Assembly: GCA_030539275.1 (NCBI GenBank) | Contig: JAUNSK010000005.1 | Span: 1-64,000 of the forward strand | Reading direction: 5' to 3' | DNA length: 64,000 nucleotides | Origin: Oscillospiraceae bacterium | Lineage (GTDB): Bacteria; Bacillota; Clostridia; Oscillospirales; Ruminococcaceae | Part shown: piece after piece, positions 49,446-60,023 of the stretch | Numbering within the stretch: position 1 is the first letter of the stretch | Layout of the letters: each line of letters opens with the position of its first letter | Position numbers and translations under genes: made by a program | The notes under the pieces: model-generated | Databases searched by the model: none | Seen by the model: the letters and a program-made list of their open reading frames with translations, nothing else | Told to the model about the DNA's origin: nothing

Positions 49446-50282
49446 TTATTTTGCCTTATTTTTTGTTGATTTATCAGCTCTTTCAAATAAAATAGGAATA
49501 AGAAAACCTATTATAAGAAGTACTATTCCCACAATGCCCTCTGTATTGAAACGAAAATCAGACGGGAATATTGTAAGGAGTGAGCCGACTATAAGTCCTA
49601 TTATAACAGCATATGTACCCTGACGGAAATTTTTAAGAAGCAGGGATATGCATTTTGCTCCGGCAAGGAGACCAATAACAGCACCTGCAGCAAAAGGTAT
49701 CAGAAGTGCAATATTAAGTTCCTTGACGCTTGTGGTGGCTGTCTGATACATTCCCATGATAGTCAGCATAAGAGAACCGCTGATGCCAGGAATTATCATT
49801 GAAACAGCAGCTATTATTCCGCCGATAACAAGTTTTACAGCAAGTCCGACACTGAAATCTCTCGCAACGACATCAGATGTACCAGAGTTTTCAAGGAAGA
49901 ACATAACGATCATAACACCGAGTGCCACAATGAACGGGACAGTGCTTACAGGCTGAAACTTCTTTTCAGCTGTACATTCATGCCATATCATCGGGAGACT
50001 TCCGCATACTATACCGACAAGGGTAAGCTTAGTTGCTGTCGGATAGTTTTCAAACAGCCATGTAAGTCCGAAAGATGTGGCATATATGCCGATTCCAAGA
50101 CCAACTGCAAGTGTCAGCAGAAATGGTATGTTCTTTTTGAGTTTTTTAAAATTCAGTGAAATAGCATTGAGAAGACGGTCGTAAATTTTAAGAATAACCG
50201 CCATTGTACCTCCGCTGAATCCAGGGATTACAAATGCAATACCCATTGCAATACCTTTTAATACATTAATTATGTGTCCCAT
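49446..50282 (-). CDS. popT: DUF368 family polyprenyl-phosphate translocase (PopT-like)
   Basis: A 278-residue integral membrane protein. The family signature GIAFVIPGFSGGTMAVILKIYDRLL is split across the N-terminus, and a second copy of the motif, MIIPGISGSLMLTIMG, lies about residue 165, reflecting an inverted internal repeat. About eight to ten hydrophobic segments are visible. DUF368 proteins were shown in other bacteria to return undecaprenyl phosphate from the outer to the inner leaflet, recycling the carrier for wall and polysaccharide synthesis. It leads a three-gene operon and has a paralogue at 54505-55377. Confidence 0.9.
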   Translation of the reverse strand: MGHIINVLKGIAMGIAFVIPGFSGGTMAVILKIYDRLLNAISLNFKKLKKNIPFLLTLAVGLGIGIYATSFGLTWLFENYPTATKLTLVGIVCGSLPMIWHECTAEKKFQPVSTVPFIVALGVMIVMFFLENSGTSDVVARDFSVGLAVKLVIGGIIAAVSMIIPGISGSLMLTIMGMYQTATTSVKELNIALLIPFAAGAVIGLLAGAKCISLLLKNFRQGTYAVIIGLIVGSLLTIFPSDFRFNTEGIVGIVLLIIGFLIPILFERADKSTKNKAK

Positions 50283-50332: not shown

Positions 50333-50361
50333 ATTATATATAGTCTTATACTTTTTGTCAA
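50333..50361 (-). promoter_or_regulatory. Promoter of the DUF368 operon
   Basis: Minus strand: TTGACA (50361-50356) and TATAAT (50338-50333), both consensus, spacer 17, about 50 bases before the start. Confidence 0.82.
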
Positions 50362-50575: not shown

Positions 50576-50604
50576 TTGATTTTGGCTAAACGCTGTGTTA
50601 TAAT
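50576..50604 (+). promoter_or_regulatory. Promoter of the subtilase/repeat protein gene
   Basis: TTGATT (50576-50581) and TATAAT (50599-50604), spacer 17, about 90 bases before the ATG at 50693, which follows AGGAAAGGA. Confidence 0.72.
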
Positions 50605-50692: not shown

Positions 50693-53600
50693 ATGGAAGG
50701 AAAGATTTTAAAACGTTTCCTGGCATTTGCAGTTACAGCTGCTGTTATGACCTCTGTCATACAGCCTGCAGTACAATCAGATATTTATGCAGATGCGAGC
50801 GGTGACACGCGGGCTCATTCAGCGGATTATTCATATTCACACGGAGGATGTGATATCAATTCACAATACTGCTGTGATGGATGTGATACTGTTTATACCG
50901 GTGAAGGTATAAAGATTGCAGTGCTCGATTCAGGTATTTCAAAATACAAAACGGAGAAAAGAATATCATTTGTTGACGATTCAGATATTACATTTGAACA
51001 TGGCAATGATATGGCAGCTGTTCTCAGTGATCTGGTACCAGAGGCAGATATTTATGATGTCCGGGTACTCGATAACAGCGGAGAAGGTAAGTATACAGAT
51101 GTAAACAAGGCAATTACATGGGCTGTAGATAATGCAGCTGATATCATAGTAATGAGTTTTACAGGAAATGAAGCATCATCAGTACTTGAAAGTGCGCTTG
51201 AGTATGCAGAGGAAAATGAAGTGCTTGTTGTTGCTGCAGCTGGCAATGATTCATCCCGGAAAGCTTCATATCCTGCAGCATATCCTACAGTTATTTCTGC
51301 CGGTGCACTTGATGAGTCCGGAGAGATCAGCAGTTATTCAAACTTTGGCGAAATAGTTGATATATATGCGTGTGCCTCTGAAGGTACATCATCCGCAGCT
51401 CAGTATATGCAGGAGAGTCCTGAAAAGAACTGCTCTGAGATCCGGAATATGCTCGTTTCAGGAAAAGTCAAGAATTTTGACTGCAGTTCTGTTACAGAGG
51501 AGTCGGTTGTCCGTGCGGCTGCATGCAAAAGCCATACATTCAACGGTTCATATACAACCACAAAAAAAGCAACATGTACATCATCAGGAACAAAAGTTGG
51601 TAAATGTACAAAGTGCGGAAAAGTAGTTTCAACAGTAACTATTCCGGCGCTTGGACATAGTGCAAGTTCTTCATGGACAGTAACCAGAAGTGCTACCTGT
51701 TCGTCAACAGGTACCAAGATTAAGAAGTGCACACGCTGCGGGGCAACAGCGCAGACTGCATCAATTGCCAAAACAGGCCATACATTCAACGGCTCATATA
51801 CAACTACTAAAAAACCTACATGTACAGCAGCCGGAACAAAGGTAGGAAAATGTACAAAGTGCGGTACAGTAGTATCAACAGTATCAATACCCGCTCTTGG
51901 ACATAATGCCAGCTCATCATGGACTACAACTAAATCGGCAACATGTTCAGCTACGGGTACCAGGGTTAAAAAATGTACACGATGCAGTGCAGTTGTAAAG
52001 TCAGAAACAATTGCAAAGACCGCTCATACATTCAACGGTTCATACACAACAACAAAAGCCGCAACATGTACAGCAGCCGGAACAAAGGTAGGAAAATGTA
52101 CAAAGTGCGGTGCAGTGGTCTCAACAGTTTCGATACCTGCACTCGGACATAATGCGGGTTCCTGGACAACAACAAAAGCCGCAACATGTACAACGTCCGG
52201 AACACGTGTAAAAAAATGTACACGTTGTTCAAAGGTTATGAGTACAGAGACAATATCCAGCACAGGGCACACATTCAACGGTTCATACACAACGACAAAA
52301 GCCGCAACATGTACAGCAGCCGGAACAAAGGTAGGAAAATGTACAAAGTGCAGCGCAGTAGTCTCAACAGTATCAATACCGGCACTCGGACATTCATATG
52401 GTTCCTGGACAACTTCAAAGGCTGCAACCTGTACTGTGGACGGAACAAGAAAATGCACATGTACAAGATCAGGCTGTACAAGCAGCAAGACAGAGGTAAT
52501 CAAAGCAAGCGGTCATGTATTTAACGGTTCATATGACATAACAAAGGCTGCAACATGCACAACTGACGGAACAAAGGTAGGAAAATGTAACAAGTGCAAC
52601 GCAGTAGTCTCAACAGCAACAATACCGGCACTCGGACATTCATATGGTTCCTGGACAACAACAAAGGCTGCAACCTGTACTGTGGACGGAACAAGAAAAT
52701 GCACATGTACAAGATCAGGCTGTACAAGCAGCAAGACAGAGGTAATCAAAGCAAGCGGTCATGTATTTAACGGTTCATATGACATAACAAAGGCTGCAAC
52801 ATGCACAACTGACGGAACAAAGGTAGGAAAATGTAACAAGTGCAACGCAGTAGTCTCAACAGCAACAATACCGGCACTCGGACATTCATATGGTTCCTGG
52901 ACAACAACAAAGGCTGCTACATGTACAGAGGACGGAATGAGAAAATGCACATGTACAAGATCAGGCTGTACAAGCAGCAAGACAGAGGTGATCAAAGCAA
53001 GCGGTCACAACTTCAACGGATCATTTGATGTGAAGAATGCAACATGTACCGAAGACGGATACAGAATTGCAAAATGTACAAAGTGCGGTGAAGAGATCTC
53101 ACATGATATTTTAAAAGCAACAGGACATGATCATATAACTGAAATAATCAAGCCTACATGCACTGAGGCTGGTCTTTCAACAGAAAAGTGTAAAAACTGC
53201 GGAAAGATATTCGAAATGAAGCTTCTCGCAGCAACAGGTCACAACTATGGAAAAGCTGTTGTAACAAAAGAACCTACAACAACAGAAACAGGGCTTGAGA
53301 AAATGACATGTTCACTTTGCGGAGATGTAAAGACTATAGTTCTTGATAAGGTCAGCGTCAAACTTGGCAACTACAGCTACGACACGTTCTTCTTTAATGC
53401 AGAAGGTTATGCAGATGCGTTTATTCATTCCTGGGCTATGGTTGACTCAGAGTCAGGATCTATATATCTTGAAATTGAATCAAACCAGGACTGGACAATG
53501 TCATCAGACTGCAGTTATGTAAAACTTACAACAACTGACGGATCAAGCTACGGCAAGATAAGCGGAACTAAAGGTAAGTCAGCAATGCTTATAAAGGCTG

Positions 53601-54376
53601 ATGCGCAGGCAATCACTGCAAGAAACAGCCGTACAAGTACAATTACGTTTACAAGCGGTACATATACTAAAAAGTTTACTATTGATCAGTATGCATATGA
53701 TGTAAACGGAGAAGCCGGTGCATCATACGACAGCAGGATAAAAAACAGTGGATTTTATAACTATATAGCACAGTGTCCTGCAAAGGATTATATCCTTGGC
53801 TATAAACTTACGGACAGTATCATTACAGGAAAATGTTCCGGATATGATGACGTATATTATGCTGTTCAGACAGATATGTATGATCGCATGATATATCCTA
53901 GATATATCATATACAAGGCAGAGAAGAGAAATGATGCTGATGCCAGAGAAATAAACATTCAGGTTATTGAAGCATGCAATATGAGTATTGTCAAGTCAGG
54001 AACACCTATGATCACTGCGGAAGGACATTTCAGGGATTCTCAGATGATCGTAGCAGCAAACTCAAACGACATGGCATACAAGAGAACTCAGTTTGCAGTT
54101 TCAGCAATATCAAATGTAGCAGGTTTTATCTTTAAGCCGGTTACATGCCTGGGACTCAACTGCATACTTGCAGAAGTCGGAACAGATGATTCTACCAGTG
54201 CAGATGTAAGAAATAAAGACAGGATCGAAGTTGCACTCAATGACAAGGATACAGTAATGGATGCTGCAGGACATTGTATGGATTTAACTATTTTCTCTGC
54301 ATCTGAAGTTCAGTATAACTTAAATCTTACTTTCTCAACAGGAAGCAAAAGTGCAAGTTACAATATAAGCAAATAA
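50693..54376 (+). CDS. Secreted compact subtilase with 15 CxxC-type repeats and a BACON-like domain
   Basis: A 1227-residue exported protein. Residues 1-34 are a signal peptide. A Cys cluster (Cys53, 60, 61, 64) precedes a small subtilisin-like domain (about 70-265): Asp79 in AVLDSGI, His103 in EHGND, Asn185 in AAAGNDS, Ser233 in GTSSAA. The triad is in S8 order, but the spacing is short, and no I9 propeptide is seen. Residues about 280-880 are 15 repeats of about 40 residues, alternating two types that start with FNGSYTTTK or GSWTTTKAAT and end in ALGH or ASGH, each with Cys in T-C-T and K-C-T-K-C positions. A BACON-like domain (about 895-1005, SNQDWTM) and an unassigned C-terminal domain follow. 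Such Cys/GH repeats occur in Firmicute surface proteins. Metal binding and proteolysis are inferred. Confidence 0.85.
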   Translation: MEGKILKRFLAFAVTAAVMTSVIQPAVQSDIYADASGDTRAHSADYSYSHGGCDINSQYCCDGCDTVYTGEGIKIAVLDSGISKYKTEKRISFVDDSDITFEHGNDMAAVLSDLVPEADIYDVRVLDNSGEGKYTDVNKAITWAVDNAADIIVMSFTGNEASSVLESALEYAEENEVLVVAAAGNDSSRKASYPAAYPTVISAGALDESGEISSYSNFGEIVDIYACASEGTSSAAQYMQESPEKNCSEIRNMLVSGKVKNFDCSSVTEESVVRAAACKSHTFNGSYTTTKKATCTSSGTKVGKCTKCGKVVSTVTIPALGHSASSSWTVTRSATCSSTGTKIKKCTRCGATAQTASIAKTGHTFNGSYTTTKKPTCTAAGTKVGKCTKCGTVVSTVSIPALGHNASSSWTTTKSATCSATGTRVKKCTRCSAVVKSETIAKTAHTFNGSYTTTKAATCTAAGTKVGKCTKCGAVVSTVSIPALGHNAGSWTTTKAATCTTSGTRVKKCTRCSKVMSTETISSTGHTFNGSYTTTKAATCTAAGTKVGKCTKCSAVVSTVSIPALGHSYGSWTTSKAATCTVDGTRKCTCTRSGCTSSKTEVIKASGHVFNGSYDITKAATCTTDGTKVGKCNKCNAVVSTATIPALGHSYGSWTTTKAATCTVDGTRKCTCTRSGCTSSKTEVIKASGHVFNGSYDITKAATCTTDGTKVGKCNKCNAVVSTATIPALGHSYGSWTTTKAATCTEDGMRKCTCTRSGCTSSKTEVIKASGHNFNGSFDVKNATCTEDGYRIAKCTKCGEEISHDILKATGHDHITEIIKPTCTEAGLSTEKCKNCGKIFEMKLLAATGHNYGKAVVTKEPTTTETGLEKMTCSLCGDVKTIVLDKVSVKLGNYSYDTFFFNAEGYADAFIHSWAMVDSESGSIYLEIESNQDWTMSSDCSYVKLTTTDGSSYGKISGTKGKSAMLIKADAQAITARNSRTSTITFTSGTYTKKFTIDQYAYDVNGEAGASYDSRIKNSGFYNYIAQCPAKDYILGYKLTDSIITGKCSGYDDVYYAVQTDMYDRMIYPRYIIYKAEKRNDADAREINIQVIEACNMSIVKSGTPMITAEGHFRDSQMIVAANSNDMAYKRTQFAVSAISNVAGFIFKPVTCLGLNCILAEVGTDDSTSADVRNKDRIEVALNDKDTVMDAAGHCMDLTIFSASEVQYNLNLTFSTGSKSASYNISK
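51533..53350 (+). repeat. Coding tandem repeats, alternating A and B units
   Basis: About 15 units of roughly 40 codons, organised as A-B pairs of about 80 codons. Early units differ at many positions, while those around 52380-53008 are almost identical, showing recent expansion. The last two units (from about 53112) are the most divergent. Confidence 0.9.
52517..53008 (+). repeat. Two near-identical 246-bp tandem copies
   Basis: The copy starting at 52517 (GTATTTAACGGTTCATATG) recurs at 52763, a period of 246 bases, an exact number of codons (82). The copies are the same except near the end, where the second turns to GAGGACGGAATGAG. Confidence 0.93.
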
Positions 54377-54504: not shown

Positions 54505-55377
54505 TCATGCGGCAGCTTTTCTGGAAGCTGCAATTTTTGCAGCCTGCATTCCAATAACAATAGCTGCACCTATAGCGAAAAATATAATATCGAAAGTTTC
54601 CATTGTCATTGCCTGTCTTGGTACCTTCAGAGTGGTCGGACCCTGTACAATTGCATACAGAGAGCCGATCATCATACCCACTACAGTGTAAATTGTCTGG
54701 CCGCGGAATCTGTCCATAGACTTTTTAATAACTCCGACAGATAAAAATATTCCCGCAAGTATTCCGAAGCCGACAGAGACTATAAGGATTATGCCTGAAA
54801 AATCAAGATGCATGAGGCATTTTAGTGAATCTATAACCGGCATGTACAGGCCGAATGTAAGAAGAATCGTTGAACCTGATATTCCCGGAAGAACCATCGC
54901 AGATATTGCACACATTCCGGCGATAAACGAATAAATGATCATGGCAGTATTCATTGTCCCGGTATCGGCAGTACTGTCAGTACCTATTACAGAAATAAGG
55001 ATCACTAATGCAGCACCTGGCAATATAAACAGTGAATTTGCGGGTTTTTTCAGACTGTCCCGTTCATCATATATCATAACAGGTATTGCAAACAGGATAA
55101 ACCCTAAAAAAAGTGAACTTACTTCATAAATACCCTGTTCAAATACAGCTGCGAGAACTGTAACTGCAAGAGCCATGCCTATAAGCCAGCCTGCACCGAG
55201 CTTAAGAAGAAACAAAGCCGCATCTGTGCGTTCCTGTTTTGTGCCTTTTATGATGTGATCGAGCGATACAATAAACTCATCATAAAATCCCATGAGAAAT
55301 GCTATCGTTCCTCCGCTTACTCCGGGGACGCTGTCGGCCAACGCCATACAGAATCCTCTTATCATGTTAATAATCAT
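54505..55377 (-). CDS. DUF368 family polyprenyl-phosphate translocase (second copy)
   Basis: A 290-residue membrane protein; the ATG at 55377 is chosen because AGGAG lies ten bases upstream, while the frame reaches 55431. It shows both family motifs, SVPGVSGGTIAFLMGFYDEF and VLPGISGSTILLTFG, and about eight to ten hydrophobic segments. It belongs to the same family as the protein at 49446-50282 but differs clearly in the loops, so the two are old paralogues rather than a fresh duplication. The expected role is undecaprenyl-phosphate recycling. It is monocistronic. Confidence 0.9.
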   Translation of the reverse strand: MIINMIRGFCMALADSVPGVSGGTIAFLMGFYDEFIVSLDHIIKGTKQERTDAALFLLKLGAGWLIGMALAVTVLAAVFEQGIYEVSSLFLGFILFAIPVMIYDERDSLKKPANSLFILPGAALVILISVIGTDSTADTGTMNTAMIIYSFIAGMCAISAMVLPGISGSTILLTFGLYMPVIDSLKCLMHLDFSGIILIVSVGFGILAGIFLSVGVIKKSMDRFRGQTIYTVVGMMIGSLYAIVQGPTTLKVPRQAMTMETFDIIFFAIGAAIVIGMQAAKIAASRKAAA

Positions 55378-55468
55378 TGTTGTCTCTCTCCTGATAATGA
55401 ATGTTCTGACTGACAAATTTACATGCTGCACGTTGAGTACAGTATAAAATAAGAAGTGATCTGACTAT

Positions 55469-58642: not shown

Positions 58643-58997
58643 AACCTGATTCCTCCATTAAAATATACTATGATTTTATTATACAACAAAAAGAATAAAA
58701 AAACAAAATATTTTTATCTGAAACCGTTTATTATTTATTGTTTTGCTGATTTTGAAATATAGCAATATTTTGTAACATTTAGCACAATAAATTGACATCT
58801 TTTATTATTTTTTTTTGATATACTTAAAAAGTATATAGCCTGTATATATTTTCGGTGCATTGAAATATATTCCGGGCAAATACCAAAATCTTATTTATCA
58901 GAAGTTAAACGTTGACAAGTTGAAAACAGACGTGATATAATTATCTTAAATGTTTATATTAGCAGTAATAAATGCATTTTATGGGGGTTTGATTTTT
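58643..58997. other. Divergent regulatory region upstream of the GH5 gene
   Basis: AT-rich, no gene. It contains a palindrome TATACTT-AAA-AAGTATA at 58819-58835, the GH5 promoter, and an imperfect LacI-like operator candidate around GTTAAACGTTGAC (58905-58917) overlapping the -35 box. Confidence 0.5.
58912..58941 (+). promoter_or_regulatory. Promoter of the GH5-LacI operon
   Basis: TTGACA (58912-58917) and TATAAT (58936-58941), spacer 18. Transcription would start near 58948, almost on top of the ATG at 58950, which argues for the downstream TTG at 58998 as the real start. Confidence 0.8.
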
Positions 58998-60023
58998 TTG
59001 AAAGTTGGATGGAATCTGGGGAATACGCTTGATGCGCTCCCTCATTTTACAGTAAAGATGCATGTCGGAGATTATGAGACCTCATGGGGAAATCCTAAGA
59101 CAGACAAGGAAATGATAGATGATATCAAAAAGGCAGGATTCAATATTGTCCGTATACCTGTTACATGGACCGGACATATTGGGGATGCGCCGGATTATAG
59201 AATCGATATTGACTGGTTTCAGAGGGTTGAAGCAGTAATCGATTATGTTCTGGACAATAATATGCAGGCTATCATTAATCTTCATCATGAGGATTGGTAT
59301 ACACCGACATCAGGGAATTTTGAAGCAGCAGCAGATAAACTTGAAAAGCTGTGGACTCAGATTGCCGTGTATTTCAGCGGTTATGACAGTCAGCTGATCT
59401 TTGAGGGACTGAACGAACCGCGACTTATAGGTACTGAATATGAGTGGAACGGCGGTAATGTTGATTCATGGGATATAGTAAACAGGCTCAATAAAATATT
59501 TGTAAGAGCTATCCGCAATACGGGCGGATTAAATAAAACAAGAAAACTAATGATCCCTACATATGCCGCATCCTGTTGTGAATCAGCAATAAATGCTTTT
59601 ATTATTCCTGAAGGTGAACATGATAATATTATAGTATCAGTTCATGCGTACATCCCATATGATTTTGCTCTCAACGGAGACGGTACCTCTGAGTGGAGCA
59701 GTGAAAATAAGAAAGATACATATGATATTGATCACTTGATAGACCTGTTGTACACAAGGTTCACGAGTAATGGCATAAAGGTTATTATAAGTGAATTTGG
59801 TGCTGTGGACAAAAATAATAAAAATGACAGAACGCAATGGGTAAACTATTTTATATCGCAGGCATCTCAGAAAAACATAGCATGTATCTGGTGGGATAAC
59901 TGTTCATTTACAGGAGACGGAGAGCTTTTCGGACTTTACGACAGAAATTCAAAAAAATGGGTTCACCCGGAAATTGTACAGGCAATGATGGAAGCGGTAA
60001 ATCATCAGAGTCTTGCAATGTAA
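58998..60023 (+). CDS. GH5 glycoside hydrolase, apparently cytoplasmic
   Basis: A 341-residue family 5 enzyme starting at TTG 58998, which has GGGGG ten bases upstream and a promoter about 50 bases before it. The ATG at 58950 lies at the predicted transcription start and would add 16 mostly hydrophobic residues (a weak possible export signal). From the TTG the protein opens at once with the catalytic barrel: KVGWNLGNTLDA, NIVRIPVTW, LHHEDW, GLNEP with acid/base Glu140, HAYIPY, and SEFGA with nucleophile Glu266. It is closely related to the lipoprotein GH5 at 1898-3070. A cytoplasmic GH5 would cut imported oligosaccharides. A LacI gene follows 24 bases later, suggesting sugar-controlled expression. 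Confidence 0.9.
   Translation: MKVGWNLGNTLDALPHFTVKMHVGDYETSWGNPKTDKEMIDDIKKAGFNIVRIPVTWTGHIGDAPDYRIDIDWFQRVEAVIDYVLDNNMQAIINLHHEDWYTPTSGNFEAAADKLEKLWTQIAVYFSGYDSQLIFEGLNEPRLIGTEYEWNGGNVDSWDIVNRLNKIFVRAIRNTGGLNKTRKLMIPTYAASCCESAINAFIIPEGEHDNIIVSVHAYIPYDFALNGDGTSEWSSENKKDTYDIDHLIDLLYTRFTSNGIKVIISEFGAVDKNNKNDRTQWVNYFISQASQKNIACIWWDNCSFTGDGELFGLYDRNSKKWVHPEIVQAMMEAVNHQSLAM

Follow-up and report, generated by a model that had tools for sequence, protein, structure and literature searches.

The folding of subtilisins is the textbook example of dependence on a prodomain and on calcium, a need that engineers have got round by removing the calcium loop. In the parts of the literature available to us, to which all statements on published systems are limited, deletion of residues 75-83 from subtilisin BPN' greatly speeds unfolding and refolding, and a BPN' mutant engineered for easy folding folds without its prodomain (PMC4865297); the same deletion is listed for the variant 3bgo (PMC7935941). 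Other subtilases include QhpE, a cytoplasmic, single-turnover protease of quinohemoprotein amine dehydrogenase biogenesis (PMC7876137), and CspC and CspA of Clostridioides difficile, which have lost activity and serve otherwise (PMC6636752). The M64 IgA protease of Thomasclavelia ramosa (Protein Data Bank, PDB, entry 9qa6) carries a putatively zinc-binding domain, ZBD1, built of three-stranded subdomains; where these meet, putative zinc sites are each made up of two His and two Cys. The domain spans about 110 Å for 129 residues, and the fold is described as a possibly novel metal-binding one awaiting experimental test (PMC12237041). Here we analyse a gene that joins a compact subtilase head to a long array resembling that domain, at 50693..54376 on the forward strand of a window of 64,000 nucleotides (assembly GCA_030539275.1 of an Oscillospiraceae bacterium, contig JAUNSK010000005.1, positions 1 to 64,000).

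This combination of a compact S8 (subtilase) head, a rod of the ZBD type and changeable tips is rare among the Clostridia sampled, and our literature search, limited to the parts of the sources available, found no description of a compact S8 head fused to such a repeat array. The gene and its parts are:

50693..54376, + strand: whole gene, ATG start, 1227 amino acids (list of open reading frames)
50693..50797, + strand: likely signal peptide, residues 1-35, with KR, a hydrophobic stretch and ADA (read by eye)
50798..50899, + strand: linker with Cys, His and Asp, residues 36-69 (sequence composition)
50900..51412, + strand: S8 domain, residues 70-240, with Asp79, His103, Asn185 and Ser233 (profile, alignment, fold)
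51383..51412, + strand: catalytic-Ser helix as modelled, residues 231-240, shortened in frame (alignments, models)
51533..53371, + strand: array of 15 His/Cys units (sequence; strands modelled for the first three units)
53372..54373, + strand: C-terminal domain, 334 amino acids, with a BACON-like start below the cut-off (profile search, tail comparison)
50576..50604, + strand: weak promoter-like site, TG preceding its second hexamer, some 90 bases 5' of the start codon (consensus scan)

We consider it reasonably probable that the product is an extracellular rod protein with a stripped subtilisin head, a metal-clasped array and a changeable tip, the head being active in the family and inactive in the window copy. 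The protein would be rod-shaped and, if secreted as its leader suggests, would lie at the surface or outside the cell. Its head would be a stripped-down subtilisin fold without calcium site A or a recognisable propeptide, and its middle a rod in which 15 small units, each of three strands, are clasped to their neighbours by metal, most likely zinc held by His and Cys. The tip would most likely bind something, whether a substrate, the cell wall or, through the dockerin of one relative, a cellulosome. In the family the head would most likely be proteolytically active and need no prodomain to fold; in the window copy an in-frame loss of eight residues has shortened the catalytic-Ser helix, and if the head, most likely inactive, is retained at all, it would be for structure or binding.

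The original prediction of a compact subtilase on a repeat stalk is borne out by profile, fold and eight aligned relatives. Asp79 (DSG), His103 (HGN), Asn185 (AGN) and Ser233 (GTS) stand where it had placed them, in S8 order, and are invariant in 9 of 9 aligned heads. With residues 1-289 as query, PF00082 is matched above its cut-off (85.2 bits against 21.8, E 6.4e-24) over window residues 70-240 and profile positions 1-225 of 288; with the whole 1227-residue protein as query the family is not listed. The gene is also the best match of a PF00082 search of its own genome (1.1e-21). Elsewhere in that genome (G000 C38 44665-47612) lie two adjacent PF00082 genes, with frames of 613 and 584 amino acids, each matched in two pieces. 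The distances noticed earlier hold as well: 154 residues separate Asp from Ser, and the segment after the His is short, with a distance of 128 residues from His to the G of GTS; among 39 comparison loci, several of them near-duplicates, 24 subtilases could be scored and 15 could not, and the scored ones have 140-168. The His motif is HGN in the nine aligned heads and in a further copy, L064, whereas the 24 scorable comparison subtilases have HGT (22) or HGS (2). The window model has the subtilisin fold, the S8 fold being recovered over 203 residues. Its top PDB matches by sequence and by fold are BPN' variants, several of them titled calcium-independent; beyond 3bgo, these presumably carry the 75-83 deletion too.

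The compactness has a definite pattern. Compared with the canonical subtilase L019, five family rows are short of 9 amino acids at calcium site A, 13-14 before the Ser, 5 after the Asn and 3 before the His, and by our reading of the alignments the 9 missing residues would correspond to BPN' residues 75-83. The family looks like a natural counterpart of calcium-free BPN': the loop is absent at the same place, naturally, but further loops are missing where the engineered enzyme keeps the rest of its fold, and a linker rich in His, Cys and acidic residues precedes the domain. From BPN' itself, with which it shares profile, residue order and fold, the family differs in lacking the calcium-A loop, the hairpin before the Ser and any propeptide family found, and in having HGN for HGT; the window copy further lacks 8 residues of the Ser helix. 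The first reading had seen no propeptide, and a Pfam search with residues 1-289, read down to matches of E 1, likewise showed no propeptide family. Many subtilases carry their propeptide where this linker stands. His, Cys, Asp and Glu make up 37-54% of the leader in the eight relatives against 29% in the window copy, measured there from residue 26. We infer that the family heads fold without a prodomain; a natural family without the calcium loop at that very place and without a recognisable propeptide would be a direct test of subtilisin folding theory. A bolder idea, which we hold to be rather unlikely, is that these form a natural class of extracellular subtilisins, prodomain-free and calcium-A-free, in which folding or activity depends on metal through the His/Cys/acid-rich leader and the zinc-clasp rod, so that extracellular zinc would switch or brace a protease directed by interchangeable targeting tips.

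The same design was met, in a scan of named bacterial genomes, in an Oscillospiraceae metagenome-assembled genome (MAG; L008), Ruminiclostridium hungatei (L009), a Ruminococcus MAG (L010), Pseudobacteroides cellulosolvens (L011) and Ruminococcus flavefaciens (L012, together with L013 and the truncated L014 on two contigs of one MAG); L015 and L016 were not counted as members. Whole-genome searches added copies in G267 and in G475 (L064, a head only, at a contig end), giving ten genes in nine genomes, window included, with G1040 and the R. hungatei record counted once. Matches below E 1e-40 occurred in 2 of 396 genomes sampled from the family, 2 of 394 from the order, 2 of 391 from the class and 1 of 398 from the phylum, samples that overlap between ranks and have the own genome counted at each. 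At E 1e-10 the family rank gave 27 of 396 genomes, only the own genome and G267 falling below 1e-40; two of the remaining matches, L019 and L020, were read and are other subtilases. At genus rank and E 1e-5, two of 11 genomes matched: the own one and G009, where the match, at 31% identity, is another subtilase. The 10 other genomes of the genus yielded no family member. Between the two R. flavefaciens heads, nonsynonymous divergence (dN) is 0.081 and synonymous divergence (dS) 0.74 over 217 codons, which indicates purifying selection for protein sequence in this pair. The family heads are probably active proteases.

The window copy departs from its relatives at one point that had gone unremarked. 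Directly after GTSSAAQ it shows a gap of 8 residues against each of the eight aligned relatives, all of which have the full helix behind the catalytic Ser; canonical L019 likewise retains these residues, and the loss is in frame. We therefore file the window head as an S8 homologue rather than an active S8 peptidase, and the shortened helix makes it most likely inactive. The suggestion that this might be a pseudoprotease was thus probably a right guess, on account of a helix loss seen in one of nine heads; compactness does not speak for it, because relatives with all four catalytic residues are compact too. CspC and CspA offer a precedent for inactivated subtilases with another role, but those lost triad residues, and CspC keeps its prodomain, whereas the window copy keeps its triad and has its Ser helix cut (PMC6636752). 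Were the shortened helix tolerated, the head could still be an active protease working outside the cell like its relatives. We regard this as unlikely, since the 8 residues are absent from none of the eight aligned relatives, nor from L019, and model confidence drops over the Ser half of the window head, with no such fall there in the L010 model (itself also weak at the junction and first unit, with blocks of 60, 71 and 69). The window copy, as a probably inactivated member, matters less in itself.

Another kind of activity was suggested by the profile searches. Among NCBIfam models QhpE (NF049966) ranks second for the window head and first for 4 of the 6 heads that were searched, and tails vary between members, as they would where the tip is released cargo; the head could then be a protease that works once or processes itself, its cut in its own chain freeing rod and tip, much as QhpE acts once on its partner. 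Both are compact S8 proteins, QhpE being cytoplasmic and its model having 219 positions and no array. Scores are 78-91 bits (82.1 for the window) against a cut-off of 165, and where a tail can be recognised it looks like a binding module, so that we judge self-processing very improbable. The top NCBIfam model for the window, the type VII secretion system (T7SS) mycosin TIGR03921, was set aside at 91.8 against a cut-off of 278.75.

The array that follows the head comprises, as had been counted, 15 units, which span residues 281-893 (613 residues) and are 38-44 amino acids long. A His stands at the start of all 15 units, a first Cys in 14 (the last unit is without it) and a Cys pair in all 15, as Cx2C in 12 and CxCx4C in 3. 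Fourteen units hold three or four Cys and the last unit holds two, exactly three being present in 11 of 15; the array has 47 Cys in total, and its units mostly alternate between HxFNGSY and GSW/SSW types. Eight members have 15-24 units by Cys pattern. Each of the first three units is modelled with three strands (predicted local distance difference test, pLDDT, 76-94 by block). The first 256 amino acids of the array have a single PDB match up to E 1, to residues 923-979 of 9qa6 (E 1.9e-6), a stretch that falls in ZBD1 by our own conversion of the numbering. The likeness extends from sequence to the three strands per unit and to His and Cys as likely ligands; the differences are that ZBD1 and ZBD2 have three and two subdomains against 15 units here, and that the catalytic domain there is an unrelated metalloprotease. 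Scaled from ZBD1, the 613 residues would make a rod of about 52 nm.

Whether metal or disulfides stabilise the stalk had been left undecided. Metal is favoured by analogy with the repeats' sole PDB match, a putatively zinc-binding domain in a protein without observed disulfides. An array held by disulfides would suit a protein that is probably extracellular and has 47 Cys in its array, but is improbable with an odd number of Cys, three, in 11 of 15 units and a His in all 15; the producer genera are anaerobes, which we also count against it. No disulfides were observed in the related IgA protease, which stayed monodisperse only with a reducing agent present (PMC12237041). If metal-clasped, the repeats would make a zinc-binding fold, which we found described, as a prediction, for one IgA protease only, a rod material of several gut clostridia. 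In 3 of 10 other genomes of the genus, similar arrays stand beside other domains in other proteins, and the array is therefore a general building block and not part of the protease. By eye, the large proteins concerned (L087-L091, in G001, G003 and G005) include some with lysozyme-like or NlpC-like starts and dockerin-like ends.

The tip is the least constant part. The BACON-like module proposed for it stands as a weak similarity (PF13004, E 0.005, 17.2 bits), below the curated cut-off of 25. Among the 28 pairs of eight tails, a tiny set, none fell below E 0.02; the best was L013 to L011 (0.025), and only the window and L012 tails (E 0.073) are weakly similar along their length. The L011 tail ends in CARDB and dockerin domains recognised by Pfam, which suggests a cellulosome for that member. 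Dissimilar tails and a pretoxin-HINT/LHH nuclease gene next to the R. flavefaciens copy L013 had raised the idea of a polymorphic toxin; small genes that look WXG100-like by eye also adjoin that copy (L013 11177-15643). The idea was set aside: Pfam found no toxin family in the eight tails, and right behind the window gene there is no same-strand gene except a 112-residue reading frame overlapping the opposite PF04018 gene.

Several observations weigh against parts of the reading favoured here. For the head, ordinary subtilisins, which have the calcium loop, are ranked by Foldseek just below the calcium-independent ones and are level with them in VIA-align, where the L010 model was trimmed and the window model untrimmed, and the prodomain still greatly speeds folding of the easy-folding BPN' mutant (PMC4865297). 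For inactivation, a protease dead for long would not have to preserve a frame open over 1227 codons and four intact residues, as this one does; low confidence from a shallow alignment is no proof of misfolding, the S8 fold being still recovered; and an assembly error could account for the 8-residue gap, the species having yielded no second record. For the rod, the 9qa6 match drops to E 0.016 with the whole array as query, and zinc binding by the IgA-protease domains is itself only predicted (PMC12237041). For attachment, Pfam recognised no cell-wall anchor in 7 of 8 tails searched, the dockerin of L011 being the only such domain.

A link to phages was also considered. Six IMG/VR contigs (L047-L052) carry one identical gene, identical also over the 2427 bases compared to G267, and in L047 it adjoins tail, holin and M23 genes, which resembled lysogenic conversion. 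In G267 (C13 145827-179245, L092-L094) a prophage with a serine-recombinase-like gene at one end (by eye) interrupts a Mn-catalase (cotJC-like) gene, one half of which lies at 145827-146195 and the other, N-terminal half at 179060-179245. The prophage carries tail, holin and M23 genes, their families assigned on the identical stretch of IMG/VR. With its start near 179.8 kb, the S8 gene lies past the N-terminal half and outside the prophage; it is therefore chromosomal there, and prophage cargo was rejected. A search for attachment-site repeats in G267 gave only an 11-base match, taken as chance.

Around the window gene, the promoter-like site is graded weak because the scan found 24 sites against 13.7 expected. 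Flanks of six relatives, read by eye, had nothing obvious in common with the window. On the opposite strand the S8 gene has an undecaprenyl-phosphate-translocase-like neighbour (PF04018) on either side, at 49446-50282 and 54505-55431 (-), the former preceded by a sigma-70 promoter match of 12/12 at 50333-50361 (-). Near by in the window lies a GH5 cellulase gene (58950-60023, +), which fits the cellulolytic habit of the relatives.
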